A DNA stretch of 64,000 nt from Diplocarpon mali (Eukaryota; Ascomycota; Leotiomycetes; Helotiales; Drepanopezizaceae): positions 88,328 to 152,327 of the forward strand of contig JAENRP010000094.1 in the NCBI GenBank assembly GCA_024741835.1, written 5' to 3'. How positions within the stretch are numbered: the stretch's first letter is position 1; every line of letters starts with the position of its first letter. The position numbers were made by a program, and so were the translations under genes. Under the pieces are notes generated by a model. It was not told the origin of the DNA. It did not search any database and saw only the letters and a list, made by a program, of their open reading frames with translations. This document shows, in pieces, positions 16,030-44,018 of this stretch.

Positions 16030-16034
16030 ATTAA
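16030..16034. repeat. TSD of Copia-1b (left)
   Basis: attaa, repeated at 23633-23637. Confidence 0.9.
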
Positions 16035-16232
16035 TGTGGTACGGTCGGCTGGAGGGCCTTCATTAGGTCGCTCAGGAGGCTCGCTGATATAAGAGAAGAT
16101 GATTGATTATATTGTTTTTTAGTATATATATGGTAAGGAGACTTCGGAAAGAAAAGGGAAAGTCTATAACTTAGCAGGAGTTATATAAAGGGTCTTTAGA
16201 ATAAGTGGAGACTCTGCCTATTCTATATAATA
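16035..16232 (-). repeat. Copia-1b 3' LTR
   Basis: The outer end is TGTGGTACGGTCGGCTGG; the inner end TATTCTATATAATA is RIPed. It is followed by the purine tract complement TACCTCTTAG at 16233-16242. Confidence 0.93.
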
Positions 16233-20500: not shown

Positions 20501-23230
20501 GCTATATATATAAATATAACTCTAGTTAGGCTTTAAGCTTGCTATTATCTGCTTAATAAGTAGCAGCTTATAGAATCGAAAATACTACTTAAATTAACTA
20601 TAGAAAGCCTTACTTAATAAGATCATCTTCTTCCTAGCAAGTAGGAAGATGTTATAAAGGTATATAGCAGCCTTTATAACCTCTGGCCAAAGGCTTGCTA
20701 AAAGCCTAGCGTAGATCCTCATTTTGATAGAGCGTTCAATTAACTCCCTTTCTGCTTACTCTGCGCCTCTATTAGGTTAGTATATATAGGCAGGAGTAAG
20801 CCCTAAATCGATTCCCTCCTCTTTTACCTATCTCTAGTACTTTATAAGAGAGTCTTCCCTTAAGGAGATTATTAAAGTGGTATTATCTTACCTAATCTTG
20901 CAAATTAAAAGCTTATATTAGCATTTCACCTATGCTTTAAAGGCCTAAAGGACCTCTATAACTACGTCTCTACCCTTTGATCTTAATAGGAACGTCTAAA
21001 GTATACTACTATACTCGTCCTTAATTAAAAGAACCTATAAGCAGCTATTATATAAGTTATTTAAAAAGTTAAAGAGATCTTAAGAGATCCTAAAGAAGGG
21101 CCTTAAAGATCGGTTCTTAAAGGTAGTATAAGAAATAACTTGCTTAGCAAATGCTACTGCATATATAGGGCACTTTAGCCTTTATATTCCCTTAATTTTC
21201 ACTCCCTTAGTGCACTTAACTAGCGCTTAAAGAGCCTTTGCGCCTAGGTAGCTAGCGCAAAAGTACTAAGTATATGCATCATTATCCTATACCTTAATAG
21301 GTATATAGTTAGATTAGAACCTATTATAAAGCATCGTCTTAATTATAGGAAATGCTATTAAGGCAGAGAAGTCATATTAAAGTATATTTAAAAGATCCAA
21401 ATAGTTAATAGGCTTATATTTAAAGAAAATAAGATTATAGTAACGCTTTAATTAAGCTTACTTTACAAAGTCTCTAATACTCCTAAAGCGCAAAGTGAGG
21501 TCTACCCTAGAGTATTAAAAACCCTTATCTGCGAAGAGCCTCTCTAAGATGATATTAGTAGTAAACTCCTTTATAATAGCAATATTGCAAAGCATTATCC
21601 CTATAGGAGAGCCGTTATACTATAGAAGAGAGTTTGCTATATATCTATTACCTCTCTTAATGATTAAGAGTCTTAAGGTACTTACTTTAATATATTGCTG
21701 CGAGTCGCCAAAAGGCTTAAAGGTACCTGCGATAAGTAAATCCTTTAAATTAACGATATAAGTGACTGCGCAATTGTTAAGGAGCGTACTTAAGGAGAGC
21801 GGGTAGCATTCTAGCTTAAAGAGGTAGTAGACGTTAAATAATTCTTTAAAAGCGTCAAAGGCAAAGGGATCTATTATTATAAAGACTAGTAAGTTCTCCC
21901 TTTTGCTTAAACCATCCTCTTTAAAGGTTGAAGCCTTTCCCTTGAATTTATCAATTGCTATTACTATAATATTATTCTCCTTAAGCTATACTTAAAGACC
22001 TTTGAACTAGTCTTCTGCATTTAATACCTTTTGTATTTATAGGACCTCCTTTCATAAGGAGAGAACCTTTATATTTTCCTTACGCCTATCTATAGTATAT
22101 AATAGTTTCTAATAGTCCTAGGGCTTTTAATAGTGATTTTTAAAGCCTCTATAAGGGCACTTGGGCCTAATCTCCCTTTTGAAGCTTATAAAGCGATTTT
22201 GGGAGCTGCTCGCTAAAGCCTGCAAAAGGGTTTCGACATTTAAAAAAGACTTTTAAGTAGTAAAAACTGCTAGTCCTTTATTATCGATCGCTCTATTGGA
22301 TTTAATACCCGCTAGGGCGCAGCTTAGCTGCATTAGGTTATGCTTATATAGGGTTCCTATCTACTTATTAGTAATAATTTCCTCCTTTAAATAAGTCGCC
22401 TAACTCGGATTGATCTTTATTACAACTAAGTCTAAAAAGTTAATAACTCCTAATCTCCCTTTAATCTTAAGGAGATTGTGTTATTCTACTAAGCGGTATA
22501 CCTCTTGCTACTCCTAGATCTACTGCTAAGTATTGATTCTTTTAATCTTACCTTAGTATAATATATCGCGGTATTAGAGCCTTATCTAAGACTGAATAGC
22601 CTTATTAGAAGGCGTAATATCACGCTTTAAAATAGATACTAGGCCTTAGAGTAAGAGTTGCTAATTCACCAAATTGGTATACGGGTTGTTAGCAGTAGTT
22701 CCACTTATAAGAGTATCTCTATTAGGTATTAAAGAGGAGAGCTTCTCAGCTTGGATTTATACTTAAGCTATCGCAGAAGCTAAGAGCGTTTTATTAATAG
22801 TTTTAGAGACCTATTCTAAGAGTAGTTCGTAATATTTACATTAGGTCTTCTAAGTCTCCTTACGTATATAGTACTCCTTTATTAGGATTTTATATTTATC
22901 CTTAATATCCTTATAAGAAGCCTATAAAGGAGGAGCCTTTAACGGATCTCCTAAGGGAAAGCGGGCGTAAATCTATTCGGATAGAGTTGCTATATACTCT
23001 TTATACAACCTTATATATACTACGCAAAGGTTAGCCGTTTCCAATTCCTTAAGCTCCTATATAAAGGGAGCTTAAGGCTCGGTCTCTATAATTGACTTAA
23101 ATAAGAGTCTCAGATTAGCAAAAATGGTAATATTATAAAGCTTAGCGAAGAATATATATTTACTAAACCACTTTACCTAAGAGGCAGAGGTATTAAAGCA
23201 AGGCTTAGAGATGCTCGAAAAGTCAGATAT
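17585..23230 (-). pseudogene. Copia-1b gag-pol
   Basis: Same polyprotein as Copia-1a, from a start codon now ATA at 23230. Protease is near 21767 (complement of TGCGCAATTG encodes NNCA). Integrase is at about 20690-21110, RT at about 18500-19230 with YIND at 18671-18682 (second catalytic Asp of YxDD retained, first changed to Asn), and RNase H at about 17700-18260. Stops are RIP-type throughout. Next to the YIND site a CAA codon survives where Copia-1a and 1c have TAA. Confidence 0.9.
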
Positions 23231-23434
23231 ATTAAATAGAGTCTAGTGAAAAGGTTAGGTATATAGATAAAGTTTGCAAATAAGGTTCGATCAGAAAATG
23301 GAGATTTATTAATTAAAAATAAAGGTCCTTCGAGTTGTTATAAGTACTTGAAAAGTCGGTCAAGAGCTTAAAGGGCCCTTTAGCCGGTTGCATATAAAGA
23401 GAAAGTATATTAAAGTACTTATAGGGCTTATAAC

Positions 23435-23632
23435 TATAATGCAGTTGGCTAGAGGGCCTTCATTAGGTCGCTTAAGAGGCTTGCTAATATAGGAGAAGAT
23501 AATTGATTATATTGTTTTTTAATATATATATGGTAAGAAGACTTCGGAAAGAAAAGGGAGAGTCTATAACTCAGCAGGAGTCATATAGAGGGTCTCCAGA
23601 ATAAGTAGAGACTCCGCCCATTCTGCACGACA
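23435..23632 (-). repeat. Copia-1b 5' LTR
   Basis: The outer end CATTCTGCACGACA is intact; the inner end TATAATGCAGTTGG is RIPed. The primer-binding site lies at about 23416-23434 (GGGCTTATAACTA on the plus strand). Confidence 0.93.
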
Positions 23633-24193: not shown

Positions 24194-24249
24194 ACAAAAT
24201 CACTTATAATGCTTGGAAGATAGCTATAAAGGTATTTATTTAAAAGTAC

Positions 24250-24494
24250 TATAAAACAGAGGGGAGACAACACAAGAATAGGCCTAAGGGAAGACCTAAA
24301 AACAAAAGGAGGAAGCACTACAAGCGGGCTCTCTTAGATAAGATGTTAGGAACAAGTCCTAAGTATGGGGTATATTCAGTACTATAGCGATACGCGCTAT
24401 CTCTATATATAGAAGATGGCCCTTTTATCCTCCTACTATCCTACGCCGATTATATAATATATATTATAAGACCTATCTATCTTAGGTCTCTATA
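24250..24494 (-). repeat. Gyp-1b 3' LTR (245 bp)
   Basis: Same subtype as 47343-47588: it shares the segment with TAGATAGGTC, AGAAGATAGCCC/GGCCC and AGGAGGATAAAAGGGC (minus strand) that Gyp-1a, c and d lack. Confidence 0.85.
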
Positions 24495-24779
24495 TATATC
24501 CTAAATAACAAAAGTAGTAGCCCTTACTACTATTAGTAAAGAATATAAAATAATATAAGTTAAAGTAATAGTATATCAATTACTAGCAAACCCTAAGTGT
24601 AAGAAAACTAATATATCAAAAGGCCTAAACTAGGGCTATATTATTATTAAAGGTAAAAGAAAAAAAAGAAGAGTTTTTTTTTTTTTTTNNNNNNNNNNNN
24701 NNNNNNNNNNNNNTATATACTTTTCACCTATAGGCCAGGCCCAGGAGTTAGAGAACGAAACTAGCAAAATAAACAAATA
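24495..24779 (-). other. Gyp-1b 3' non-coding tail with assembly gap
   Basis: It contains a poly-T run, 25 Ns (about 24689-24713) and a palindrome at 24726. On the minus strand it ends in TTTACTAATAGTAGTAAGGGCTAC before the LTR, the same as 57440-57460 in Gyp-1d. No coding potential is seen. Confidence 0.7.
24726..24748. repeat. 23-bp palindrome, Gyp-1b tail
   Basis: ACCTAT-AGGCCAGGCCC-AGGAGT, next to the poly-A/N tract; 57284 in Gyp-1d holds the same position. Confidence 0.75.
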
Positions 24780-25150
24780 AGCTATAAAGTTGTAAAAACA
24801 ATTAAAAATAGTACTAACTTAAATATCAATTTTCCTTAGTTCTCTTTAAGGGATAAGGAGAATTATCATTAGATAATACTCTCTTTATAAAGCGCCTACT
24901 TCTTCTTAATAGTTCACTATTAGTATTAGAAGAGTCCGGTCTTAGTATTATAAGAGCTTTAGTATTTTATAAAGATGCTAGTATAGTTTAATAGCTTTTG
25001 CCGATAAGGAGGGAGACTTATATTATAGCATTATTATTATTATCCTTTTTATTATTATTATTATCCTCTAAAGAGTCTTCTACTATAGAGGGGAATAAGG
25101 CGGGCAATTCAATAGATAATACTTCCTTTTCTTTACCTTTAGTTAATACG

Positions 25151-25173
25151 AGTTGCGGGCCGGGCCTAGGAGT
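25151..25173. repeat. 23-bp palindrome, ORF-B
   Basis: AGTTGC-GGGCCGGGCCT-AGGAGT; 3,886 bp from the ORF-A counterpart at 29037. Confidence 0.75.
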
Positions 25174-25972
25174 TGTATTAAAGGGTTTAGTATAAGGTTT
25201 CTTAATGCTATACTTTTCGAAAAGGATCGTCTTATTAATTATATTATTAGCTTTAATATTATTATTAGTACCTTTTATCTTAATCTAGGACTTATCTCTA
25301 TACAGTTATAGCTCTAACTATTAAATCAGCTTCTAAATATAGGTGAAATCATTAAAAAGTTCCTACTTATACTTCTTTAGATATATTATCAATTAAGCTA
25401 TATCTTTAGAGAATAACTCCTTTACTATTATTACTACTAATAGATCGTTCTATAGCCGTTTCCCTATAAGTGCCTCTAATAATAGGCCTCCTTTTGTTAT
25501 ACTAAGCGTTATATAAAATTTGGCTAACGATTCTCTAGTAATACTCCATCTCGCAGTGCTAGGTCTCTTTATACTAATAGAATCAATAAGAAAATCTTCT
25601 AAGTCTATGCCATTCTCTAGTAAGTTATTGCTAATAACTTCTATATAGTTATTACTAATAGTAAGAAAGCTACCTTTTCCTAATTCTCTAGCAGATTTTA
25701 TATTAACGAACGTGCCTTATCTAGTAAATATAGAGAACGGAGTTATCTTATTAAAGATATACTCCTTTAGAAGTATCTTCTCTCTAGTGTTTAATTCTTT
25801 CTATTATACTATATTTCGAGCCAGATTTAGTAAGATCTACTAAGCATTCTTAAGGCGTTAGGGTATAAGATTTAATAATTTATAGGATTTTTCCTAAATA
25901 GCGAATTCTCCGGTCGATTATTTAGCTACCAGAATTACATAGTAGTCAATAGTTCTATTATTAGGTGGATTA

Positions 25973-25995
25973 ACTTATAAGCTAGGCTTAGGAGT
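25973..25995. repeat. 23-bp palindrome, ORF-B
   Basis: ACTTAT-AAGCTAGGCTT-AGGAGT; counterpart at 29922 in ORF-A (offset 3,949 bp). Confidence 0.75.
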
Positions 25996-27202
25996 TAATC
26001 TTACAAATCTTATATTAGTATTAATCTTAGTAGTAATAACTCTTAAGTGGTAGTCAATTCTAATAAACTATATAAGCTTAAGATACGTTACTAGTTTGTA
26101 TAAAGACTTATATCAAGTTAGCAAAGCACTTAAGTATAATCTATAATATATTCTCAATATCTATTATATTAAGTTATAAGTTATATTATAAAGGTAGGCA
26201 AAGGGGGGGTTTGGCTTCTTATTTAAGGTTCGGAAGTGGTATTAGTACATTTCTAGTTCTTCTTATACTAATATTAAAAATGAATTCTTTTTACAATTAC
26301 TATAACTATACGTGCGTATAGCACTTAAAAAGGCGTAGCTAAACAACTTAGGCATATTTAAAAAGCCTTTACTATAGAATAATATAAAGTTGTTAATAGT
26401 TAGTATAGCATTGTACTAGGCAGGGGTCTATACAATATTATAGAACAATTTAAGGGCTTTAGGTGCTACTCTAAACTTAAAGAAGCCTAACGATATATCC
26501 TTTTTGACTTGATTTGCCATTCTATTACTAATAGTTATAATTGCATAATTTCCTAGATATAATAAAAACAAGGTCGGGTTAGGAGCAGTATAAAATTTAT
26601 AGATATTAGACGATATATCTTTATTATTAAGGCCTATTATTGCTAATCTATAGTACTGCGTATATTAGCGTTTATAAAGGGCGTAGAACTTTTCAAAATT
26701 GAAGTCTTTAAATATTTCTATTATAAACTTTATAAGTCTTATCTTTATTTTTAGTATTATTACTATCTTAAAACTGTTGCTATACTATAGTATCATCTTT
26801 ATATTAAAGGGGACCTGATAATATTCTATAGAGATGATATTTATATTAACTTCGGATTTCTCCTTAAGAATATAGAAGTCACCCTTCAATTTCTTATACT
26901 TAATAAAGAACTGTATAATATTGTTTATAGAAAATTCGTCTTATAGCAGTTTTATAATCTGCTTAACGGCTCTTATCGTCCCTTCCTATGCTAATAAGAC
27001 TTCTCCCCGACCTTCTTTTCTTAAACGCTTTATTATTAACTTATAGAATTTGAGAATAAATTTTTATAAGTTATTAAGGAAAGATTGCATAATATTAGCA
27101 GTATCCTTCTTAGTATTATTAAAAATTTCCAGTATATTAGTAATAGTGCCTATTTCTTTATTAGATAAATCATCTTTTAAGTTTATAATATTATATATAT
27201 TA

Positions 27203-27225
27203 ACTTATAGGTTAGGCCCGCGGGT
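27203..27225. repeat. 23-bp palindrome, ORF-B
   Basis: ACTTAT-AGGTTAGGCCC-GCGGGT. No clear equivalent in ORF-A; a decayed look-alike (GGCAGGTTAGGTCCAG) at about 31272 is not at the same spacing. Confidence 0.7.
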
Positions 27226-27388
27226 CATTTTCTTTGCTACTAGTATTTAAGGTATTCGAGGCATTTCTAAGGATAGTGACTCAAATTCGTCTAAGTTAGA
27301 GGATTAGTAGTTAGGTAGGCCAGCTGCTTGAGTTCCTAGTATTATAGGCACCTTTGGCTTAGGGATATCCTCCTTATATGCTAATTCC

Positions 27389-27411
27389 ACTTATAGGCCA
27401 GGCCTATAAGT
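27389..27411. repeat. 23-bp palindrome, ORF-B
   Basis: ACTTAT-AGGCCAGGCCT-ATAAGT, a nearly perfect palindrome. It is read TYRPGLQV on the minus strand in the ORF-B frame. Counterpart at 31308 (offset 3,919 bp). Confidence 0.85.
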
Positions 27412-28440
27412 CAAATTCTCTTTATTAGTTATTCCTACTAAAGGTAGTAGCATTTTTAAAGTAATAGGAATAATAAACTCCTATCTCTTTAACTTATTAT
27501 TAAAGTAATTCATAGTATACTTAGCGAGATAAGTCATCTTTTCTTTTATAATAAGTAGACTATATTGCGACTGTTAAAGGCTAAGTATATTTAGAACAGT
27601 TTGGTTAAGAAGTGCAAAATTATCATATTATAAGGGTTTATCTTTTATAATCTAAATAGTAGAGTGTATAATAGTGCTTAAGAACCTAATAAATTTTCTG
27701 CCTCTAATGCTATTTCCCTGCAGCTTTTTTATACCTTCTTAAATAGTGAAATGATTTAATACCTATATGGCCTTTGCTATAGGTTAGTATATCTTAAAGA
27801 TTTTACTAAGCCTTTATAAGGCATTATTAGTAGTAATATTAGTTATAAAGTAGGTTTGGAAAAGTATACTATAGGTGCTACTTATAAACTGTAATAATCT
27901 TTTTATACACTTATTCTTCTTATCTCGATTTTTCTAAAACAAATCCATTGAATTAGTATACCTTTAAAATTCCTATAGAAATTTTTTACAATTGATCCCT
28001 TTTATCTTAAGCTCATTCTTAAGAAAATCATTAAAGCTTAAAAATCCTTTTTTTATAGTAGAAATTCTATAGTTTAATACTTCTATAGATAAGTTTAGGA
28101 ATACTTGCTATTCTATTTCACTTAACGTTTTATAGGTGCTTACTATATCTTCTAATAATCTTAGAGCTTTTTTGTCTTATGAAAAGTTACCCTTTAATAT
28201 TAGTTTATTATTAGCGGTATTTAGGGGTTTGCTACCTAAAGCTATAACTGATATATTCTTCTTAAGTATGGCTTTCTTACTTAAGCTCAGTGGTACTATA
28301 ATGAATTATTTAGTAGGAAGGGGTAGTTCTAAATAAAGAGATGATTATTTAGGAAAGATTAATAATATAAGAGGCTTATACTAGAAAAGATTGATAATGA
28401 AAGATAATAGTAGTAGTGCTAGTGTTATAGGTCTAGTAGG

Positions 28441-28849
28441 GTTGTAGAAAAAGTAAAAAAAGTAAAATCGTAGTATAGGGAGAGGCTTATTTATAGAGTT
28501 TGAAATCGCGCTAGTATATAAAGGAAAAGTGGGCATAATGAGCTTAGAAGTAGGAACAAAAGTGGGGTATGACGTATATAAGGACCTACAATTGGTAAAT
28601 GATAATTCTTTAAAGGTAAGGATAATATTTCAAAGGTAAGCGTTAGAAAGTTATATATAAAGGAAATAATTAAGAGATAGATTATATAAAGAACAAAGTA
28701 GAGTAAAGAATATATATAGAATAGAATAATAAATGGAGAATAAAGAGGTGCTAGTATATAGGAAGTAGATAATCTTAAAAAAGATTTAACTCGAATTTGT
28801 AAGTCCTTTAAATGGTCTTCTCTAAGGGTAATAGGCTAGATTCTCTAGA
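28441..28849. other. Spacer between ORF-A and ORF-B of Gyp-1b
   Basis: About 400 bp, AT-rich, dense in TATA and AGAAAG-type runs, with no palindrome and no frame that continues A or B convincingly. It may contain a promoter or an intron-like join; nothing specific is supported. Confidence 0.4.
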
Positions 28850-29036
28850 TTGCTTAACTCAATTATCAGTTCTATTATCACTTTAGAGTCTTCTTCTCTT
28901 ATATTAGTTCTTACCTTTTAGCAATTTCTCTAATTTAAGTGCCTTTATTAAAGGAACCTCTATTTATATCCCTAGGTTTAGTAACCGAGGTTCATCCGAA
29001 CTATCTCATAGGCTTAAGCCAGCTGAGTCCAACCTT

Positions 29037-29059
29037 ACTCGCAGGCCGGGCTCGCGAGT
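29037..29059. repeat. 23-bp palindrome, ORF-A
   Basis: ACTCGC-AGGCCGGGCTC-GCGAGT, one of the least mutated copies. Minus-strand reading in the ORF-A frame is TREPGLRV. Confidence 0.88.
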
Positions 29060-29921
29060 CAGTCTTAGCGTTTCTAAGCTTAAGGGTAAAAACAAGGGAT
29101 TAGTTCCTAAATTAGGGTCTAATATTATATTAGCGTTTCGGTTTATCTCTTTTCCGAATTTTCTTATAATAATGCCTTTATCAATTAGTGCATTAGGCTC
29201 TTAGATAGCATTTATTTTATCGTATTATTCCTAAGACTTAAGTTTATAAAGAAGCGACTTAGTATTTATAATATTCGTTTAAGCATTAATAAGGGTATTA
29301 AAGAGTTTCTGATTATATTTTATAAAGTGGATTTTCAATTCGTCTTTATTAAAAAGAAACAACTTCCGTACTTCGATTAGAACCGAGGGGTCCGTTTAAG
29401 AGCATTAACTAATAATAGCTTTAAAGAGGCTGCCGCAGTTCTTAAGATAAAAAGCTGCTTTAAAAGGTATAGTAGTTCTACTTGCATTAATCTATTAAAG
29501 TACTAAAGGTCGCTTTAAAGCAAAGACTAAAAAGATAAGATTAGAGATTCGAGTCTTATTTTCTAAAGTATTCTTATCGCAGATAGCTATATAGTTATTA
29601 CAAAGGGCTATAAAACCACTAGTTCTATAAGAATTATTTAAAAGCATTTTAAGAAGATATTCCTATTTTATTATTACTATAATTGGATTGCTATTATTAG
29701 TAATAGGTCGCAAGATCTCCTTTCGCTTTAATTTTATAATTATTTAAGCTAGTTGAGATTTTGAACCAAGTGCCTAGGAAGTCTATCGACTTATCTTCTT
29801 TGCAGATAGAGTGAGTTTTATATTCGACTAAGAGCTAATCTACCTATTAAGGCTTCTTAAAGTAGGTCCTTATCCGATTAATAGGATTTGATAATCTAAG
29901 ACTTGCTTTCTAATAAAATTA

Positions 29922-29944
29922 ACTCGTAGGCTAGGACTGCGAGT
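29922..29944. repeat. 23-bp palindrome, ORF-A
   Basis: ACTCGT-AGGCTAGGACT-GCGAGT. Confidence 0.8.
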
Positions 29945-31307
29945 AATAATTGGATTTTCTTTATTAGTAATACTTATATCTCTCTTTATCGAAACGACTT
30001 AATTATAAAGACTAAGACCAATTAATTAAAAGGGTTTAAGGTAAGTTATAAGCTAATAGGCTCTTTTACTTTTCGCTATTATAGCTAAGAGGTAGAGTCT
30101 ATAATATATCTAAAGGACTTATTAAATAAGACTGAATATTATATTATAGAGAAAATAAGAAGGTATAAAGGTTGTATTATCTATAGGGCGAAAGTGATAA
30201 AGGTATATCTCTACTTCTTATTTTATAATAGAGAGGAATATACTTATAAAAGCACTATTATTAGTAGTAAAATTGTCGGTTAGGAAGCGGCATCCGAAGG
30301 GTTTAAGCATTACAATTGACCCTTTTTCCTTTATTTCCTCTTACTATTTATTACTTAATAATATCAATAAGAAGGAATTGTTCTATTCAATCGGCTCTAA
30401 CGCTTTTAAGGCTTTAGGATTAGCCTTGAATTTTATAGCTCCTAGAGATGCTTCTATTATTAATAGGTTAGATTTGCGTATCCTTAAAGAGATAAAGAAT
30501 TAATTATTAAAGTAGATTAGAAAAAGATCGATATCTTCTACTATATAAAGAAGTTTGAAGTATTTAATAGTCTTATTAATATTAAATCCTTTATAATTAA
30601 GGCTATAGTAAACCGAAAGAGAGCGAGTATAAAGGTTGCAAAGTCTTCTCCCTTCGATTCCTACGCTAAGAAGATACTATTAAAAGCGAGTTTTCATTAT
30701 AGAAGACATTTGAATATTATATTATTCTTTAAGCTTAAGGTTAAGAATAACCAATTGAGGCATATTACTATAATTATAAATGTCCTAATTAATAAATTCC
30801 TCTTTATATTCTCTTTCTTATAAGACGAAATAGTCTTGCTTAGCATCTAAGAGATTAGGTTCTTAACTTTTATAATTATTAAAGAATTGAATAATATCTG
30901 TAAGGGCGAATTCGTCTAAGGTAAGCTATTGAATCTATTTAATAGCTCTCTCGGTTATTTCTAAAGTAGTAGGAATAGGGTCTTCTCTTATATTATCGTT
31001 TTTAAAGCGGTTATATATAGATATAAAGAAGTTAAGAACTAGCTCTTTTAAATTATTAAGAAAGGAGTCTAAATAAGCGCGTAATCCTTTAATTTTAAAT
31101 TGCAAATTAGCTAAGGTAGCTATTAAATGATCTATCCTTTTTAAAGGTTGAGCTAAAATTAGTCGTTCAATTAGAGGAAAGTCTTTTAAAGATTTTGAAA
31201 ATTCTAATAAGGCTACACTAAGCGTTTAAGTAGTTTATTCGGCAGCGGTTTCTAAAATCATTTTAATAAAAGGCAGGTTAGGTCCAGTTTTAAAATTCTT
31301 ATTTCTA

Positions 31308-31330
31308 ACTCTTAATCTAGGACTGCAAGT
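31308..31330. repeat. 23-bp palindrome, ORF-A
   Basis: ACTCTT-AATCTAGGACT-GCAAGT; minus-strand frame reads TCSPRLRV. Confidence 0.75.
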
Positions 31331-32180
31331 CAAATCATATAGTTTAGCACTTATTATATCTTTAGGCTAAGAAGCGAATTTTAAAGCAGGCTTAACTATA
31401 AATAACCAATTCCTTTCTTTATTATTAAAGAAATCTCGTTTAAACCTTATTATAAGAGTCCAGTTCTCTTTTAAAATAAGCAAATTATAAGCAGAAGCGC
31501 AAAGCTTTAGCATATTAACAATAGTACTATTAAGTAGGGTAATATCTATAGCTTAATTTGATTTTTTTATAGCCCTATTAGCTACTATAAGTATTGCATT
31601 AGATAGGCCTATAAATCTGCAATTGCAAATTCGATTGCATTAGAATTTTGCTACTCCTTTTTAAATAATAAAGAAATTAAGAATCTAAATAGCTCTGGCG
31701 ATAGGAGTATTTTCCTTAAGAATTTTTAATAATACTCGTCTTCTACTATTAGAATTAATATTTATTAGAAAGCGCAAATAAAATAAGAGTCCTCTTTTAT
31801 TAATGGCTAAATTATCTAGTTGTCGAATAGATTCTTCCCTTTTATTTCGATCTATTTTGAAAGTATCGGCCAAGGTTATATATTAATCTGCATCGGCTAA
31901 GAATTCCTCTTTAAAGATTCCCTTCAGTCTTAATTCTTTAGTTAGGAAGTCGTCAAATTGGAAAATTCCAAGGGCCACTTAAGTTGAAAGGTTATTAATA
32001 GTATTTGCATAAGCTAAAAGGAGTTTTTATTACTCTATATCTCTTAAGGCTGCGTAGGTCGATTTAAAGCTCTTTAACAATATAATAGCTCTGCTATCTT
32101 AAGAGAAGTTTATAATTAATATTTATTTATCCCCTATTATATTAGATAAAACCATTTGTGAGTTCTTTAAAGGCATATTG

Positions 32181-32589
32181 CTTATGAAAGATAGGGAGTA
32201 TAAATAAGAGAGTTTAATAGGATATAAGAATTAAAAGGGCATATAAGCTATAATAGGTTTACTATATATATATTAAGGAAATTGGACTTTTTATTTATTA
32301 TTTAAGGAAAGTAATAGGAATACTATAATTAAAGGCTAATATTAAAAATGCAAAATAAGTTAAAGCAGGTAAGAATTTAAAGTAATCTTAAAAGATCTAT
32401 ATCTTAAATAATAAAGGAGGCGACTTTACTAAAAATGTAAAAATAAGGATTAGAAGAAGGTAAGACAATTAATAGGCTAGGAAATTGTTTAATATTCCTA
32501 TTTGCATTCTTTAGATATTTTAAGAATAATGACTTATAATTATAATTAGTTAGGTATTTTAATATTCTTTACTTATAAGACCGGCTTAT
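32181..32589. other. Spacer between integrase and ORF-A
   Basis: About 400 AT-rich bases with no convincing frame. It ends at the palindrome 32571-32593, just after the integrase C-terminal end. Confidence 0.4.
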
Positions 32590-32593
32590 AGGT
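32571..32593. repeat. 23-bp palindrome after integrase
   Basis: ACTTAT-AAGACCGGCTT-ATAGGT. Confidence 0.75.
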
Positions 32594-34005
32594 TAAATTG
32601 GAAAAATCTTAGTCTTTATCTAAAGGTTCAAAATTGCTTATATCGCTATCGGTTTTTGCAAAAGATTCGGAGGTTATATCAATTTCTAATTCGTCTTCTA
32701 AGGGGAATAAGGTCTAGTCGCGTTAATAAAAGCGCTTTAATCGGTTAGCTGCAAAGGTTCCTTTAATATCGATTCTATTAAGTTCCTAAAGAAAATAGTA
32801 TCCCTTTTCTTTCTGCTCGGATTTAACCTTAAATAGGCTAAGCTATCGATAGTTAAGTTTAATATCTACTAATATATTAATACTTTTTGCAATATTATAA
32901 ACTAAGATAAGATCATCTTTTTAAATAGGGTAAGTCTTAAGTACTTTAGAAGTAGCCTACGCTTCCTTAGCTTTTTCCTAATATCGTTTCTTTTATAAAA
33001 TGATCTCTTCTATATCTATATCTTAAAGCTTAAGTTATTAGCATCTTATTATAAGTAAATTAAAACGGTTTTAAATTTGATTATAGTCGAATAATCTCTA
33101 AATAGGCTATTAAGATTTAAGAGAGAGCTATGCCTCTCTATTATAAATAAGGAAGAATAGTATAACTCTAGTCGGTTTATAGATTATCATTCGATAAGCA
33201 AAGAGTATTCTATAAAAGTGTTTTATCTAATCCTTAAATCCTTTATAAGTAACTTTAAATAGATTATTAAGAATGTTATAGTATCCTTATTCTACTACTC
33301 TATTAGCTTTCGAGTTATACGCTAAGATTTGAACCTGCTTAATGCTATATTTCCGCGAGAAAGCTTTAACTACTCCTTTGTTTTTAAAGCCTCTATTAAT
33401 AGTTAGTCTACTAAAAAGTCTATAGCAATAGACTACGTCTTCTTAAAGGAACTTTACAATAGATTCAAAGTTAGCAGATCTTAAAGGTCGTCCTTTAAGC
33501 TATCCTAATAGGTCTTCCTTTATTAAAATAAAACATATTATCCTATTCTTAATAGTTAGTACTTATATAATATCGAGGCTGACTTTATAAAAAAGGCCTA
33601 ATAGCTAGGTTAGGAATAAGGGATTTTCCTTATAACTAGGTTTTCGTTTCTAATAAGGGACGCAACTCTTTATAAAAGCTTTATAGTCTTCAAAAGTACC
33701 TTTTTAAAAGAATTTTCTTAAGAGTCGGTAGTAAGTGGACTTAGCTCCTTAATAGCCAGTCTTCTTATAAATATCTTAAATAGCCTTTGCTTGCAGTTTA
33801 TTATCATTTAAATAGAGCTATATAGGAAATGAGTTATCGCTCCTTTTAAACAATCGCTATCCTTGCATTAGATAAATCAAAGCTTTAGCTTTAAACTTTT
33901 GAAAATCCTTAAGAGGAATTATCTTTAATTATCTAAGTATAATTAAAAATTTTGCGATTTCCTTAGAGTCATTTAAGTAGTTAAGTAATAAAATTCTCTC
34001 ATTTG

Positions 34006-34028
34006 ACTTGCGGGCTAAGACCGCGAGT
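34006..34028. repeat. 23-bp palindrome, integrase zinc-finger region
   Basis: ACTTGC-GGGCTAAGACC-GCGAGT; lies between RNase H and the integrase core. Confidence 0.8.
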
Positions 34029-35972
34029 CGAATCCCTTTAAGGCAATATATCGATAGATAACCAACTTAGTTCTCTACCTACTTATTAATATCTATTTTA
34101 TCTTCTTTAATTAAATCAAAAGGGTAAGGACGAGTTCTTTTCAAAAGGCTATTAGTAGCAGTATTTTTTATTCTTAGAATATATTTAACTTTAAAGTCTA
34201 TTAGTCTTATTTAAGCAATCTATTTCATTAGTAAGACTCTTAATAGGTCGCTTATAGCTCTATTTAATTATTTTACTAGCACTTTAGCATTAGTTTCAAA
34301 GATGAAGTAAGTACTATAAAGGTCGCTTCTTATCTTTTTCATTACCTTTAAAGCGCCTTTGCATTCTTATTTAATAGTATTATACTTTATCTTTGCTAGA
34401 TTCTAAAGACTACTTTCAAAGTAAGCTAAATGTCTTTTCTATTAGCTATTAGCTTATTAAAGGATAGCATCCTATCCGATTAAGCTGGCGTTAACTATTA
34501 GTATAATTAGCCTAGCGTCGGCTCTATAGTCTATTTTAATTAGATATAGTACCTTAAGCAACGCTTACTTCAGTTGTTTTATAGCCTCTATTTAAGGTTC
34601 CTCTTATTAAAACTCAGCCCCTTTCCGAAATAAGGAGTAAATAGGTACTGCCTTTTTAGCAAAATCCTTAATCTAAATGCGATAGTATACTATAATACTA
34701 ATAAACGCGCGAACTTCTACTATATTATCATACCTCTTCTATTTATCGATTTTAAATACTTTAGCCCTTTAAGGACTTCGGCTATTAGAATCAATAATGA
34801 AACTAACAATTTCCATTGATAAAAGATAGTATTATAACTTTAGACCAACTATTGCTCTTACCCTTTCGAATCGTATAAGTACTTAATTTAAGTTCTAAAT
34901 ATATTCTATTATAAATCGTTATATACTAAAGAGAACTTCTTTATAATTGTAAAATGATCTTAATCCTTTTACTCTTATATCGTCTATATAAGAGAGTATA
35001 ATATTAGGTATATAATCTACTAGTATCTTATAAATTACTTAAATAAATTAAGCGATCGAATTTATAGCCTCTTAAGGTAATCTTATTATCTAAAGTAGCT
35101 TAAGAGGGGTTTGAATTACTATTATATCTTTCGATTTAATATTAAGAATAAATTGGTTATATCTAAAGAAGAAGTTAATAAGAGAGCTATAGGTTAATTC
35201 TACGAATTTATTTAAGAACTTATCTATATTTAAAGGAACGTTAGTATCCTTAATAGTTACTCGGTTCATCTCTACTACTACTATTATTAGTTTATAAGTT
35301 CCCTTCTCTTTCTTAGTAACTAAGAACCATTTGTTCCTATAAGGGCTATTATAGAATTTGAGAACGCTTTGCTTTAGCCTATCCTTTAATATTTCGATTA
35401 CCTTTTCTTAAAGAGCTTTAGGAATTCCAAATGTTTTCTCTTACTAGGCTTTATAAGGTATTATCTTAATCTTAATATAAAGCGTGACCTCTTTTCGAAT
35501 CTGGCCAAGTTCTATTTAATCAAAAGCTAAGGCGTCCTTTCGATTTATTAAGGTTTTATAAAGTAGTTTGCATTCTTATTCTATTAAGTCGTCTTTAATT
35601 TTTAGCATATTGAAACGTTCTTTTATTAGCTAATATCCGATGGATTTATTAGAGAATCTGCCTATAATAAACTTATCGAATTTGCCACCTAGCTTTAAAG
35701 GTCGAAGCTTCTTATTTTATTTAAATTAATTATCTAATCCTTTAGGCTTTAAGCTATTAGAGATTCCCTAATCTACCAGTCGTACTTTATCGGCCTTACT
35801 TTTATATATAGTTCTAATATTAGCTAGTACTATACTTCTCTACTTCTTTCCCTTTTTATTAAATCTTATAAAATAGTCCAAACTTTCCTTTTTAAAAATA
35901 AATAAAAGATTTTCTAAGTCGTTAATTTAAAGTATATAAATGGAAATATTATTAGTAATTTTATTATTTTTC

Positions 35973-35995
35973 ACTTATAGGTCCGGCCTATAAGT
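35973..35995. repeat. 23-bp palindrome, upstream of RT
   Basis: ACTTAT-AGGTCCGGCCT-ATAAGT; read TYRPDLQV on the minus strand in the pol frame. Confidence 0.85.
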
Positions 35996-36134
35996 GGTTT
36001 TTAGGTTTTTTAAAATGATTGGTAAATTATTGAAATTTATAAAATGAACTCTCTTTTCTACCTTATTTTTCTTTTTTCTTAATTATTAAGTCGATAAAAC
36101 GCCGATTATACTATTCTTTAAAATTCCAGATTTA

Positions 36135-36157
36135 ACTCTTAATTTAAGACTGCGAGT
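36135..36157. repeat. 23-bp palindrome, gag-pol linker
   Basis: ACTCTT-AATTTAAGACT-GCGAGT. Confidence 0.7.
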
Positions 36158-36442
36158 TAAATCGCTATTTTTCAAAATCGGCAAACTCACCTTCCTTTTG
36201 CTATAACTCCTTACTAAGTATCTTCCTTTACTAGTATTAAGCCTAGCCCTTATGCTAGCTAATCATTTTTTAAAACCTTATTTTAGAATTCGGCTATATC
36301 TTCTATTATAACTATTTGTCCTTTTAAAGATCGATCTGTATTCTAAAGATTAGCTTTTATAAGACTATCTTTAGGATAGTTAAATATTAGCTAAGATTTT
36401 AAAATAAAGGGTATTTTTAAAAGAATATTATTCGAAGAATTC

Positions 36443-36447
36443 TCTAT
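36443..36447. repeat. TSD of Copia-1c (left)
   Basis: tctat, repeated at 44014-44018. Confidence 0.92.
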
Positions 36448-36644
36448 TGTTGTGCAGAATGGGCGGAGTCTCCACTTATTCTGGAGACCCTCCACGTGAC
36501 TCTGCTGAGTCATAGACTCTCCCTTTTCTTTCCGAAGTCTCCTTACTATATATATACTAGATAATAATATAATCAATTATCTTCTCCTACTTCTGCAAGC
36601 CTCTTAAGCGACCTAATAAAGGCCCTCCAGCTAACCGCACTATA
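36448..36644 (+). repeat. Copia-1c 5' LTR (197 bp)
   Basis: It starts with intact TGTTGTGCAGAATGGGCGG and ends RIPed CCGCACTATA. It keeps CCACGTGACTCTGCTGAGTC in the middle. Confidence 0.95.
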
Positions 36645-36663
36645 GTTATAAGCCCTATAAGCA
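36645..36663 (+). other. Copia-1c primer-binding site
   Basis: GTTATAAGCCCTATAAGCA directly after the LTR; identical to the TRIM site. Confidence 0.6.
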
Positions 36664-36849
36664 CTTTAATATGCTTTCTCTTTATATACAACCGGCTAGA
36701 AGGCCCTTTAAGCTCTTGACCGACTTTTCGAATACTTATAACAACTTAAAGGACCTTTATTTTCAATTAACAAATCTCTATTTTCTGATCGAACCTTATT
36801 TATAAACTTCATTTATATACCTAACCTTTTTATTAGACTCTATTTAAAT

Positions 36850-39800
36850 ATATCTAACTCTTCGAGCATCTTCGAGCCTCGCTTTAATACCTTTGCCTTT
36901 TAAGTAAAGTGGTTTAGTAAATATATGTTTTTTGCTAAGCTCTATAATATCACCAATTTTGCCGATCCGAGACTCCTATTTAAGTCAATTATAGAGACTG
37001 AGCCTTAAGCTCCCTTTATATAGGAGCTTAAGGAACTGGAAACGGCTAACCTCTGCGTAGTATACGCAAGGTTATGTAAAGAGTATACGGCGACTCTATC
37101 CGAATAGATTTACACCCGCTTTCCCTTAGGAGATCTATTAAAGGCTCCTCTTCTATAGGCTTCTTATAAAGATATTAAGGATGAATATAAAATCCTAATA
37201 AAGGAGTACTATATATGTAAGGAAACTTAGAAGACCTAACGCAAATACTATAAGCTACTCTTAGAATAGGTCTCTAAGACTATCGATAGAATGCTTCTAG
37301 CTTCCGCGATAGCTTAAGTATAAATCCAAGCTGAGAAGCTCTCCTCCTTAATACCTAATAAAGATACTCTTATAAGTAGAACTACTACTAACGACCTATA
37401 TACCAATTTGGTAAACTAGCAACTCTTACTCTAAGGCCTAGTATCTATTTTAAAGCGTGATATTACGCCTTCTAATAAGGCTATTCAGTCTTAAACAAGG
37501 CTTTAATACTGCGACGTATTATGCTAAGGTAAGACTAAGAGAACTAATACTTAGCAGTAGATCTAGGAGTAGTAGGAGGCGTACTACCTAGTAGAATAAT
37601 ATAATCTCCTTAAGATCAAAGGGAGACTAAGAGTTACTGACTTTTTAGACTTAGTTATAATAAAGATTAATCCGAGTTGGGCGACTTGCTTAAAGGAGGA
37701 AATTATCACTAATAAGCAAATAGGAACCCTATATAAGTACGACCTAATATAGCTAAGCCGCGCCCTAGCAGGTATTAAATCTAATAGAGCGATCAATAAT
37801 AAAGGGCTAGCAGTTTTTGCTATTTAAGAGTCTCTCTTAGATGCCGAAACCCCTTTGCAGGCTCTAGCGAGCAGTTCCTAAAATCGCTCCATAAGCTCTA
37901 AAAGGGAGACTAGGCCTAAGTGCCCTTATAAAGGCTTTAAAAATCACTATTAGAAGCCTTAGGACTATCGGAAACTATTATACGCTATAGACGGGCGTAA
38001 GGAAAATATAAAGGTTCTCCTATTGCGAGAGGAGGTCTTATAAATACAAAAGGCGTTAAACGCAGGAGACTAGTTTAAAGGTCTCCGAATATGGCTTAAG
38101 GAGAATAAGATTGCAGTAATAGTAATTAATAAATTTAAGGGAAAGGCTTTAGCCTTTGGAGAGGATAGTTTAAGCAAAAGGGAGAACTCACTAGTCTTTA
38201 TAATAATAGATCCCTTTGCCTTTAACGCTTTTGAAGAATTGTTTAACGTCTACTACCTTTTTAAGCTAAAACGCTACCCGCTTTCTTTAAGTACGCTCTT
38301 TAACAATTGCATAGCTACTCATATTGTTAATTCAAAGGATTTACTTATTATAGGCACCTTTAAGCCTTTTAGCGACTTATAGTAATATATTAAAGTAGGT
38401 ACCTTAAGACTCTTAATTATTAGGAGAGGTAATAGATATATAGTAGACTCTCTTCTATAGCGTAACGGCTCTCTTATAAGGATAACGCTTTGCAATATTG
38501 CTATTATAGAGGAGTTTACTACTAATATTATCTTAAAGAGGCTCCTTATAGATAAGGGTTTTTAGTACTCTAAGGTAGACCTTACTTTGCGCTCTAAGAG
38601 TATTAGAGACTTTATAAAGCGAGCTTAGTTAAAGCGTTGCTATAATCTCATTTTCTTTAAATATAAGCCTATCAACTATTTAGATCTCTTAAATATGCTT
38701 TAATATAACTTCTCTACCTTAATAGCGTTTCCTATAGTTAAAATAACACTTTATAATAGGTTCTAGTCTAGCTATGCACCTACTAAGGTATAGGATAATA
38801 ACGCGTATACTTAATACCTTTGCGCTAGCTACTTAGGCGCAAAGGCTCTTTAAGCGCTAGTCAAGTGCGCTAAGGGAGTGAAGATCAGGGGAATATAAAG
38901 GCTAAAGTGCCCTATATGCGCAATAGCGTCTGCTAAGCAAGTTATTTCTTATACTACCTTTAAGAACCGATCTCTAAGGCCCTTCTTTAAGATCTCCTAG
39001 GATCTCTTTAACTTTTTAAATAACTTATATAATAGTTGCTTATAGGTTCTTTTAATTAAGGACGAGTATAGCGGTATACTTTAGACATTCCTATTAAGAT
39101 CGAAGGGCAAAGACGTAGTTATAAAGGTCCTTTAGGCCTTTGAAGTATAGGTGAAACGCTAATATAGGCTTTCTATTTGCAAAATCAGGCAAGATAATAA
39201 TACTTTAGTAATCTCCTTAAGGGAAGACTCTCTTATAGAGTACTAAAGATAGGTAAAAGAGGAAGGAATCAATTTAGAGCTTACTCTTGCCTATATATAT
39301 CAATCTAATAGAGGCGCAGAGCAAGTAGGAAGGGAGTTAATTAAACGCTCTATTAAAATGAGGATTTATACTAGGCTTTTAGCAAGCCTTTGGCCGGAGG
39401 TTATAAAGGCTGCTACTTACCTTTATAATATCTTCCTACTTATTAAAAAGAAGATGATCTTATTAAGTAAGGCTCTCTATAGTTAGTTTAAGTAGTATTT
39501 TCGATTTTATAAGCCGCTGCTTATTAAGTAGATAATAGCGACTTTAAAGCCCGACTAGAGTTGCGTTTATGCATATAGCGCTTGCGTATACCCTTTAATT
39601 AAGGAGAGGGAAGTAGAAAGGGACCGCCGAACCTTTAAAATTGAACTATAAAGGCACTTAAGTTACTTAGTTAGATATATTACCTTTAATATTTATAGAA
39701 TCTGGGTTCTTATACTCTAGTAAGTAATAATAACTTATAATATCGAATTCGATAAGTCTTTCTTCTATAGTCTAAAAGCTAAGCGCGCAAACCCTATATT

Positions 39801-42475
39801 GCGCTAAGAACTTAAGACGACCCTCTAATTGATTAGAGAGGGAGAAGGAGCTTAAGACGCTAAGTTCAAAGGCATTTTCGAAGAATCAGAGCTTATTATA
39901 AGGCCGAACGCAATCGCTATAGAAAAAGCCGCTATATAAGAAGAGCCTATATTATAGACCAACGCTACTCTATAGCCTTTAACTAATAATATAGAAGGCC
40001 TTAACTTAAATCCAAATCCGAGAGACCTGCTTAGAAACTCAGGGGTAGAAGCAAGCGAACTAGAAGCCACTTCGCCAGTCTTTAAGAAGGCAAATGGCGA
40101 CTAAAGCTTAGGGGTAATGATTCCTTATAAAGGCCTTACTAAAGAAGGAACTATAGATAACTCTAAAGGAGTCTTTAAAGATGAGTTCTATAAGGCGATC
40201 GGCAGATCTTTAGCTGCTATTTTATATAAGAATAGAAATGGCTTAAGGGCTTTAAGATAAAGTCTTCAATTATAAAGGTAGGCTTTAGTAAACTCTAGTA
40301 GAAGGCTAAAGGTACTATTACCAAGATCTAGGAGGAGCTTTAATAGTCTTATAAGAAGCGATCTAGTAAGAGGAGTAGGCCTTAATAATATAATACCTTA
40401 AGTTGTAATACTAGCTTAAAGACTATAGGCTTAGGAGATAGAGCTACTTAGACTCTTAAAAGAACCTTTAATAATAATAAAAATAAAGGAGGAGACTTAT
40501 AGAGAAAAGCACAAAGAGGAACTCCCTCTTTTTAAGCAAAAGAGGATAAGACGCTTAAGCGTTAAGCAATAAGAGACTTTAAAAGTATATGCTACCGCTT
40601 TAAAGCATATGCTCTTTTAAAGTAATATTAATTTACCTCGCTCCTTATATATATAAGAGTTTATATCGACCTTTTAAGTAAATAAATAGATAAGGGAGGA
40701 TAGGAAGGACTATTTGACAATTTATACAATTATTAAAGCTATAGTTAATAGTTAGGCAAAGGATAGAGCATAGTCTTTTAACTGCCTATAGTACCAAGGC
40801 TCTTTGCTAAAGCCTCTAAAAGGATAGCTAGACCTAAAGAAGTACCCTTTTAGCAAACGATTTAAGGAAGGAGGGCGCTAGGAGATTAGGAATTTAAAAT
40901 CTCGGAGTTGCTAAAGAATTATATAAAGGGATTACTTAAAGCCCCTGCCGATACTATTAAAATGGGTTTTTACTTATAAGGTTAATAGCTTTAATAAGCT
41001 TTTAAAGTGCCGATCACAGCTAATTATACAAAAGGATCTTTAAGATAAAGCTTTAATTTTCTTAACCTATGCAGCTACGCTTGCAGTAAGGTCTTTTAAA
41101 GTACTAATAGCGCTTGCTACGTACTTTGATATAGAAGTAAAGCAGTTCAACGTCGTTAATGCGTTTATTAACGCTCTTAAAGACCTAAGGAGTGCTCTAG
41201 TTATATACTTCCTATTAGATGGCTTTAAGTGCCCTAGTATAGTAGTAGAACTGGACCGCGCACTCTATAAGCTAAAAGACTCTTTAGCACTATAGTATAG
41301 GAACTTCGCAGGAATGCTTAAGGGCCTTCAACTTAAGCTACTAAGCGAGGAGCCTTATATTTTCATAATAAAGGATCGCATAGTCTTTATAGCGTTTTAT
41401 ATCGATGATATTTAAGTATTATATAAGGCCTTTAACCTAAATCAGGCGACTTATCTGATTAAAGACCTAAAGAGGGCATATGAGCTTACTATTATAAGAG
41501 ATATCTCCTAGTTCCTTAAAGTAAGGATTATTTAAGATAAGAAGGTAAAGAGGATCTCCTTAGTTTATAATACTTATATTAAGAAGATCGCTCAAAAGTT
41601 CGGAGCTAATATAAGAAGAGTGCCTAGTATTCTACTACTAAAGAAGGAGTTTATTAAGAACTTAGGGCAAGCTTCCTTAGAAAAGGTAAAGGAGTACTAA
41701 GAGAAAATAGGCTCTATTCTTTATATAGCGATTATAATACGCCTAGACGTTACGTTCGCAGCCTCTTAACTGTCTTTCTTCTTAATTAATCCAAGCTTTA
41801 AGCACCTCTTAGCCGCAGATTAAACGCTTTAATACCTATATAGTATACGCTTCTTAGGAATTGCCTATAGCTTTAAGGCTAAGGAATACCAATTGGTCGC
41901 GTCTTTAAATGCTTCTTTTAAAGATAATCAAGAGACTTGCAAATCCTCTTAAAGATACGTCTTCTTTCTATTTAAAGGACTGATTATTTAAAAAGCGAAT
42001 CGCCAAGCGACTATTACGCTCTCCTTTACTAAAGCAGAACTTTATAGTATGGTTTCTATTATAAAGGAGATAATAGCTATAAAACGCCTCTTTAAAGAGA
42101 TTCGCATAGACTCCCTCTTTAAATAAAATATATATTGCAACAATTAATAGACAATTCGGCTAATTATTATAAAGAATAAGAAGATTAAGAAAAGCCTTTA
42201 ATATATCGAAATCAGCAATATATAGATCTGCTAAGAGTACTAAAGAGGAAGCTTTTAAATAATCTACCTTCCTATTAAGGAGATATACGCAGATAGGCTT
42301 ACTAAGAACTTAGACCGCTAGAAGTTTAAGAGCTTTATTCATTTATTAAACCTTTAGAGCTTTTAAATAATTATTTAGCAACTCGTACTTATTAGCAAGT
42401 GGATACTTATTATTAAGAGATTCGTACTTATAAGCTCCTACTCTCTTATAGTTATATTTATTTGTTTTCTCTTAT
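36850..42475 (+). pseudogene. Copia-1c gag-pol
   Basis: Same polyprotein as Copia-1a, start codon now ATA at 36850. Protease motif is near 38300 (LFNNCIATHIV, likely D changed to N at the first position). Integrase is at about 38990-39400. RT is at about 40850-41560 with YIDD intact at 41398. RNase H is at about 41850-42400. In-frame TAA/TAG stops occur every few tens of codons. Homology to fungal Copia pol is clear; gag is assigned by position. Confidence 0.92.
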
Positions 42476-43816
42476 AAAGCGCATTATAAAAGCTTCTCCT
42501 TTTTTAAAAATATAAGAATAGGTAATATTCCTAAGCTGCTATTATAAGGCGCGACCCTTTCTTAGATCCTTCTAGCTAAGGCCAGGAGCCGCGAAGCTAT
42601 AGCTATAAGCTCCGCACGGATCTCCTCTTAAGAGAGGCCTAGAGGCACTCCCTCGGCCAGAGGCCCGCTGGCGAATATACTAGCGACGGCAGGGGCAAAG
42701 GCGGGGGGTATAGCAGGGGCGGCAGCGAAGGCGGGAGCGGCGATAGCAGGGGCTAGGGAGATAAAGGGAGATATAAAAGGGTCGGCGGCAATAGCAGCAG
42801 CAGGGATAGGAGTGGTAGTAGTAGTAAGCGGGGGAAATAGGGTAGCAGAGGATAGGCCGGCGGCAAACGCAAACGGGATACTAGGAGCAAGGGAGGCAGC
42901 AGTACTACTACTCGCAAGAGTAGCAGGCCCTCTTAATACTAGGGTCCGATCGCTCCTATCTTTTAAAATCAGCCTAGAACTTAATAAGACTTAATAAGAT
43001 ATACTATAAAAGCTTTAGAGCGCACCCTTTACTATATTAAGTAGTAGTGCTACCTCCTCCTTAGAGGCACCGCGGGCGCAAGCTAATACAATAGTCTCTT
43101 AGGAGGCAAGGAAAGGGCCGCTAGCCTATTAGCAGCTATTACTTAGTATAGTATAATAGACGCAACGCGTACTAAAGGTACTATTAAAGCATTAACAATT
43201 AAGATTGCCGGTACTCCTATGTATAATATAGTATACGCATACGTTATTACATTCTATCGTAGGCTCTGGTATACGACGCGCAGTAGGGGTAGGGCTCTTA
43301 GGCGGCGGCGGTGGCGGCGGCGGCGGAGGCGGCGGCGATAGCAGCGGCGGCTTATTACTTAGCAAACGCTAGGACAAGCGCGCTAGGGTTGCAGCTCCTG
43401 CAAGAGCGCTAGCGACCTAGCGCAAAGTTAGTATAACGCAGGGTATAAGGACTCTAAGGGTCTTACTTTGCAAGGGCAGCTAAGGCTATAATAAGCAGGA
43501 GTTCCTTCTATATTTAAAAAATTATTAATATAAAGATGATATTTTTAAATAATAAAGGAGGATTGTTTTTAAAAGAAGGGAAGGAGAACCTCTATAATAG
43601 AAATACTTTATAAGAAGCCTAATAGAGCACTAGCGTAGAATTGCGAAGATTCTTAAGCGCGCTTATTGCCTATAGCGACCCTTCTTATTCTAAAAGGAAC
43701 GACCTTTAAAAGGGCGGCATATAAGATAGAGCCTCTTTTCCTTATAACTGCCATTCTTTCCTTTGTTTTATCTATATAGCTAAGCGATTCTAAGAGCATC
43801 GCCTAACTAAGGGGTG
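42476..43816 (+). other. Copia-1c extra 3' region
   Basis: Same layout as 9521-10886. GC-rich at 42640-42960 and GGC-repeat at 43301-43340. It ends CTAACTAAGGGGTG, the purine tract (43804-43816). The sense strand has a 60-codon open stretch (42812-42994) ending SLLSFKISLELNKT, and the antisense strand is also open. Copia-1a has a 1-nt deletion near 10060 relative to the other copies. Confidence 0.6.
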
Positions 43817-44013
43817 TATTATATAGAATAGGCAGAGTCTCCACTTATTCTAAAGACCCTTTATATGACTCTACTAAGTCATAGACTTTCCCTTTTCTTT
43901 CCGAAGTCTCCTTACCATATATACATTAGATAATAATATAATTAATCATCTTCTCCTACTTCTGCGAGCCTCCTAAGCAACCTAATAAAGGCCCTCCAGC
44001 CGACCGCACCACA
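43817..44013 (+). repeat. Copia-1c 3' LTR (197 bp)
   Basis: It starts RIPed TATTATATAGAATAGGC and ends intact GACCGCACCACA. Confidence 0.95.
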
Positions 44014-44018
44014 TCTAT
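44014..44018. repeat. TSD of Copia-1c (right)
   Basis: tctat, matching 36443-36447. Confidence 0.92.

Follow-up and report, generated by a model that had tools for sequence, protein, structure and literature searches.

To our knowledge, the pol gene of most fungal gypsy elements ends at integrase or at a chromodomain. Additional coding sequence has been described in other long terminal repeat (LTR) retrotransposons: the cited passages on Retand report pol-to-LTR regions of 2.9-6.6 kb with antisense open reading frames (ORFs) thought to be regulatory (PMC11963269), and those on Cer1 report that its CERV protein acts in the nucleus and is needed for export of genomic RNA (PMC10309623). Here we describe a 64,000-nucleotide stretch of the Diplocarpon mali genome, hereafter the window (contig C94, positions 88328-152327, in an assembly of 49.4 Mb and 676 contigs). 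Positions 24247-47588 of the window hold, on the minus strand, a Ty3/Gypsy element degraded by repeat-induced point mutation (RIP), in the order LTR, gag, protease, reverse transcriptase (RT), RNase H, integrase, B, A, LTR. The element is a Ty3/Gypsy LTR retrotransposon with two additional sense ORFs, A and B, which lie downstream of integrase and upstream of the 3′ LTR, in the same sense as pol.

A (24826-28299, minus strand, 1157 codons) and B (28859-32176, minus strand, 1105 codons) are both RIP-degraded and are separated by a 559 bp spacer (28300-28858, minus strand). Within the window, A carries 57 stops over a 1284-codon stretch and B carries 64 over a 1248-codon stretch. Mapping stops over 11 copies failed to delimit the ORFs, as most copies share stop positions even in the coding frame; the ends were drawn from stop-free proteins of Diplocarpon coronariae, by aligning the window to P0003 and P0006 and counting by hand; the resulting lengths of A and B are those of P0003 and P0006, respectively. 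The degraded translations of A and B align at 28% identity over 1307 columns (357 bits, E about 1e-100), far beyond chance, and P0003 and P0006 share 35% identity over 1083 residues (634 bits). By these comparisons A and B are tandem paralogues. An earlier reading of the DNA, here called the original prediction, had posited two extra minus-strand regions of about 1,100-1,190 codons, an accessory gene that had become duplicated, and residues shared in the same order (FSxD...STY, PIA-AI-ILN-F and F-xxPKALK); the lengths agree, the A-to-B alignment that it had called for bears out the paralogy beyond integrase, and the named motifs are visible in that alignment.

The stop-free counterparts were reached through profiles of degraded copies. 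Seven A and three B rows together returned four proteins, all from D. coronariae and all with E values printed as 0, which correspond to A: P0002 (1086 residues), P0003 (1157), P0004 (1130) and P0005 (1071). Six B rows returned a single protein from the same fungus, P0006 (1105 residues). The locus tags of P0003 and P0006, PZA11_006393 and PZA11_006394, follow one another directly, and both entries give the length of the longest contig as 3,072,039 bases; these two records and PZA11_007950 are annotated as hypothetical, and the other two as unnamed products. No organism other than D. coronariae was reached by these searches, in which relatives at about 35% identity would be missed. A profile of the stop-free A and B proteins returned the four A proteins and missed P0006, so that distant relatives are beyond its reach and a restriction of the family to Diplocarpon can be stated only within that limit. 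D. coronariae assemblies are given, in the part of the source consulted, as about 34% repeats, with 20-21% Copia and 5.7-6.2% Ty3 (PMC11527701).

Copies across the D. mali assembly show that the pair travels with the element. Genome searches with P0003 and P0006 gave 622 and 623 candidates for A and B, of which 40 and 42 were scored; B lay 560-580 bp directly upstream, on the same strand, at 23 of the 40 scored A matches, and the partners of the remaining A matches may be B copies that are not among the 42. DNA probes found 277 candidate places for protease, 295 for pol, 277 for B and 265 for A, with about 40 scored for each, so that copy numbers are rough. Among 39 pol and 39 B places besides the window, 11 pol-B pairs stood at the expected 4,500 bp. 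Each of the ten copies picked by A had both A and B, together with pol or a part of it, in an unchanged order. Four of the ten are interrupted: C125 by a small element in A, C263 by an insertion in B, C40 by an insertion near the start of B, and C65 by a deletion in B together with a Copia LTR close to where B begins.

Ten further copies were picked by pol, as the best-scoring usable ones rather than a random draw (C507 was left out because its contig was guessed to be too short). Probing at linear distance, within about 120 bp, found B in six and A in three. Among those with no B at that distance, C15 retains the beginning of B, which is broken off by a repeat inserted at 31554, C115 has a Copia inserted in pol, C253 has the LTR of another element copy at 32323, just before B, with the stretch beyond it mostly N, and C281 passes into unrelated sequence from 32432, again just before B. 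Searches of the stretches read at C281, C253 and C15 with P0003 and P0006 (tblastn) gave no match. The original prediction would have fallen if other copies lacked A and B between pol and the LTR. The copies read speak for their presence, in ten of ten A-picked copies and, for B, in six of ten pol-picked copies and in part at C15, with C253 and C281 ambiguous. Conserved ORFs besides gag-pol recur in most copies read, and as stop-free proteins.

The borders of the element are those of a conventional LTR retrotransposon. Self-comparison by blastn identified the 3′ LTR at 24247-24494 and the 5′ LTR at 47340-47588, both on the minus strand, as direct repeats with 87.6% identity over 249 columns; together with the Ty3-type RT and RNase H matched by profile, this upholds the earlier claim of matching LTRs around a gypsy pol. 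In plus-strand reading, uninterrupted copies have TATAAAAC at the low end and CTCTATA or TTTATA at the high end. Target-site duplications (TSDs) of 4 bp, read by eye, are CTAT at C138, ATAG at C188 and CTAT at C65, so that the direct LTRs and short TSD expected of Ty3/Gypsy are both present. No TSD was seen for the window copy, whose right edge adjoins another repeat that starts with part of a 23-bp palindrome. At C138 and C188 the element is uninterrupted between its two LTRs, has pol, B and A, and by its coordinates measures about 15.8 kb and about 15.7 kb, respectively.

The window copy is itself interrupted by a Ty1/Copia element that is not the gypsy's own (36448-44013, plus strand, 7.57 kb; RVT_2, E 7.8e-12). 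This insertion has LTRs at 36456-36640 and 43825-44009, a perfect 5-bp TSD, TCTAT, at 36443-36447 and 44014-44018, and is absent from the gypsy copies at C138 and C188. Without it the window gypsy measures 15.77 kb, of which the region from pol to the 3′ LTR takes up about 8 kb. The element had been called giant: it is a large gypsy, but that size was overstated by the nested Copia, its own length being about 15.8 kb. Likewise, the span first assigned to the feature, 24250-36442, does contain A and B, but it stops at the Copia insertion and also takes in most of pol (about 32.6-36.4 kb).

Pol occupies 32600-36447 on the minus strand, with an approximate 3′ end. A profile of seven copies, in which the window row covers 32999-36445 on the minus strand, matched the Ty3 RT/RNase H structure 4ol8 (E 2.9e-14) and the Ty3 Gag-Pol structure 7q5b (E 1.5e-12) in the PDB. 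On the same alignment, Pfam recognized RT_RNaseH_2 and RT_RNaseH in all seven rows and Integrase_H2C2 in six; in the first row RNase H (residues 619-743) is followed by Integrase_H2C2 (881-936), which places integrase downstream, in the Ty3 order. Pfam found no match for gag, pol, A or B in the single window copy, a weak negative given its RIP mutations, nor any in the plus frames of 44014-47588. An early reading of these empty scans, in which the outer element lacked pol, was overturned by frame reading and by the seven-copy profile: the single-copy scans were empty because RIP had hidden pol. No chromodomain was detected in the seven pol rows, which end at 32999, before the end of pol, and the remainder, a single degraded copy, gave no Pfam match. 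Upstream of pol, the gag and protease region (44019-47339, minus strand) was assigned from frame reading and from its relation to small elements in the window; by eye it contains a zinc-knuckle-like stretch at about 45.3 kb and an ALID-like one at about 44.2 kb.

Every part that was measured bears the mark of RIP, with TA/AT of 1.33-1.67 and (CA+TG)/(AC+GT) of 0.48-0.65, and the window contains no ORF of 150 codons starting with ATG, GTG or TTG. Between the two LTRs of the window copy there are 28 transitions and 2 transversions. Ten copies compared with the left piece of the window element over 10.6-12.2 kb show 0.25-0.8% transversions (29-94) against about 10-11% transitions, and this combination of few transversions with many transitions points to a family that spread recently as a unit and was RIPed afterwards.

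What A and B do must be approached from the proteins themselves. As the original prediction had anticipated in recognizing no family, searches of Pfam, NCBIfam, PADLOC and PDB sequences gave no convincing match for them, and an A-B profile matched nothing in the PDB up to E 10. A few weak hits were set aside, none of them common to A and B: EF-G-binding_N for three A proteins (E 0.024-0.21, failing the cut-off), the cGAS structure 7bum (E 0.29) and an ABC transporter (E 2.3) for P0003, and MTase_I (E 0.052) for P0006. Rfam gave no match at gathering scores, and a plasmid collection gave none to window positions 26000-28000. In hydropathy plots of the five proteins the highest 19-residue Kyte-Doolittle mean is 1.26, with no membrane-like segment by this measure (no dedicated predictor was used). 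P0002, P0003, P0005 and P0006 end in basic clusters that by eye resemble nuclear localization signals, and in the protein alignment, also by eye, conserved blocks are parted by GPG-rich linkers. AlphaFold models, built on four rows per alignment, were poor (predicted local distance difference test scores of 28.7 for full-length A and 41.0 for an N-terminal piece).

The best explanation of the whole, which we offer as possible rather than probable, is that tandem duplication inside the element gave rise to accessory proteins of its own making that aid a nuclear step. One gene of about 1,100 codons would have been duplicated in tandem, most simply inside the element, and the two duplicates would have diverged and yet been retained. 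Because they lack a membrane-like segment and mostly carry basic C-terminal clusters, the products are predicted to be soluble nuclear proteins, presumably translated from the element's own transcripts. They may help element RNA or DNA through a step such as nuclear exit of the unspliced genomic RNA, shielding from silencing, or access to chromatin, perhaps working as a pair. The pattern suggests that the element may have evolved its own helper proteins.

Several observations weigh against this explanation. All 40 scored A matches and all 42 scored B matches in the genome contain stops, the fewest among the A matches being 31, at C12; the activity of the element in this assembly has to be judged from copies that are, wherever scored, stop-bearing. 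The D. coronariae counterparts are known here as proteins alone. P0002 and P0005 lack inner stretches that are present in P0003, and P0004 has a different C-terminus, so that only P0003 and P0006 look complete; P0004, one of the five, is also the protein without a basic tail. Finally, neither the sequence libraries nor the low-confidence models allow a fold or family to be assigned to A or B.

Among the alternatives, we consider it unlikely, though worth weighing, that A and B derive from a captured host gene that was duplicated and is now carried along without benefit to the element. LTR elements are known to transduce genes, but in the passages cited this usually leaves one or few copies (PMC7264820), whereas here many copies hold both genes at full length and identically arranged, and D. 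coronariae has them as stop-free ORFs. No host counterpart turned up among the scored places (40 of 622 and 42 of 623 candidates), all of which are stop-bearing. Decidedly less probable is an origin of A and B from gag or pol of the element itself, as proteins with a structural, capsid-like or packaging role: they are large and, in the low-confidence models, mostly helical, but the A/B profile found nothing in gag-protease (E 0.62) or in pol (E 0.17), as far as RIP-degraded gag and pol profiles can tell. Env-like proteins of an errantivirus-type element would be expected in this very place, in sense orientation between pol and the 3′ LTR; yet there are two genes rather than one, no convincing library match, and, by hydropathy alone, neither a membrane-like segment nor a hydrophobic N-terminus in any of the five proteins, and we regard this interpretation as very improbable. 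It is scarcely credible that A and B make up an element of their own inserted into the gypsy, the case in which the original prediction would have been abandoned. Numerous as A-region copies are, C138 and C188 have pol, B and A between their two LTRs, candidate numbers are similar for all four probes (at about 40 scored each), and no repeat pair flanking A or B was seen in self-comparisons (short terminal repeats were not searched for).

Both coding regions also carry a 23-bp palindrome whose unit is close to ACTCGCRGGCCNGGCCYGCGAGT. The window contains 29 sites with at most 2 mismatches to a RIP-tolerant form, against 1 for a reversed control, and 13 at no more than 1 mismatch, where 0.01 are expected; genome-wide, 1,317 sites have 3 mismatches or fewer, and the reversed control has 0. 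Eleven of the 29 fall within coding parts of the outer element, one of which, at 30459, was set aside as doubtful. Eight of the ten retained share a phase, in which they encode TRGPGPRV-like linkers in gag, pol, A and B; those at 34006 and 46631 are in another. Allowing 2 mismatches, the coding palindromes recur in 6 to 11 readable copies per site, the window included. None of the 29 lies inside the three Copia copies of the window. Others of the 29 are at 35973-35995 and 57284-57306, and of eight sites hand-picked elsewhere in the genome, seven were in repeats also present in the window and one was not.

The claim that three palindromes sit at equivalent offsets in A and B proved accurate. 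Those in A at 25151, 25973-25995 and 27389-27411 correspond to those in B at 29037-29059, 29922-29944 and 31308, at distances of 3886, 3949 and 3919 bp; the sites at 25973, 27389, 29037 and 29922 were noted as in frame, the first pair is near-equivalent rather than equivalent, and the B site at 31308 has 3 mismatches. These three, at matching or nearly matching places, may predate the duplication. A fourth site in A, at 27203-27225, has none opposite it in B and faces a 10-residue gap in the alignment of the stop-free proteins, so it would either have been gained after the duplication or have been lost from B. The palindrome may act as a binding site or as a processing signal, or it may be a mini-element that moves. 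In a bolder version of our account, which we consider a long shot, A and B would be a dedicated nuclear pair with an undescribed fold, the duplicates being kept for joint anti-silencing or RNA export, and the self-spreading, in-frame palindrome would supply domain linkers or the binding site of the pair. The palindrome is perhaps more unusual than the gene pair, being dispersed in a nuclear genome and in frame in several genes of one element.

Palindrome forms were also noted outside the element. At C21:8600-8930 two of them, at a distance of 54 bp, lie in sequence of higher GC content (0.49) that has no match in the window; there a 71-codon open frame, possibly of a host gene, reads them as LTREPGPGV and STRGPGPGV. 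A tandem array at 13688-14079, with 48- and 87-bp units, contains eight degenerate forms. The repeat that abuts the 5′ LTR (47589-47764) is short, starts in the palindrome, and is also found around C94:44200, C7:121200, C45:175800 and C132:36000.

Other repeats share the window. By self-comparison, three Copia copies of 7.6 kb (3484-11085, 16034-23632 and 36448-44013) are about 88% identical; RIP indices were taken from the third. Small related elements at 54830-57737, 48013-50074 and 11084-12756 have a gag-like region with 46-55% protein-level identity to that of the large gypsy; LTR-like repeats bound the first on either side, and the other two have a matching end on one side. They are possibly gag-only, non-autonomous relatives, as no pol was noticed in them, although none was searched for.

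Two large, duplicated accessory proteins offer a handle on the extra needs of a fungal retrotransposon under heavy RIP, and the stop-free proteins of D. coronariae make an accessory function testable, giving an orphan family workable members. In the open-licence PMC literature we found no tandem-duplicated sense pair of this size, nor this element or its palindrome. Botrytis cinerea belongs to the same order as the window fungus. Its Boty/BcGypsy1 is likewise a fungal gypsy with an extra gene, brtn, but brtn is antisense and single, whereas A and B are a sense pair, a comparison made by description from the passages cited (PMC8365987). Some Tcn1-like gypsy elements of fungi and plants are drawn with an additional ORF of unknown function, again compared by description in the part of the source seen (PMC2864245). 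As far as the cited passages go, the plant Ty3/Gypsy elements Retand, Grande and RIRE2 resemble the present element in that a long stretch between pol and the LTR holds conserved extra ORFs whose function is unknown (PMC11963269, PMC7264820); by the same descriptions their ORFs are antisense, whereas those described here are sense, of about 1,100 codons each, and form a duplicated pair. Cer1 of C. elegans is an LTR element that encodes a nuclear accessory protein of its own, and the likeness of CERV to A and B would be one of role only: as described in part of the source, CERV is an animal protein produced from a spliced mRNA, whereas A and B are fungal, and we claim no sequence relation to CERV or to the Retand ORFs. 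It is by likeness to the precedents of CERV and Retand that a nuclear accessory role is proposed for A and B. The known kind to which this locus belongs is the LTR element with additional ORFs, and the conclusion that its large, duplicated sense pair is a new form of that kind is well supported.

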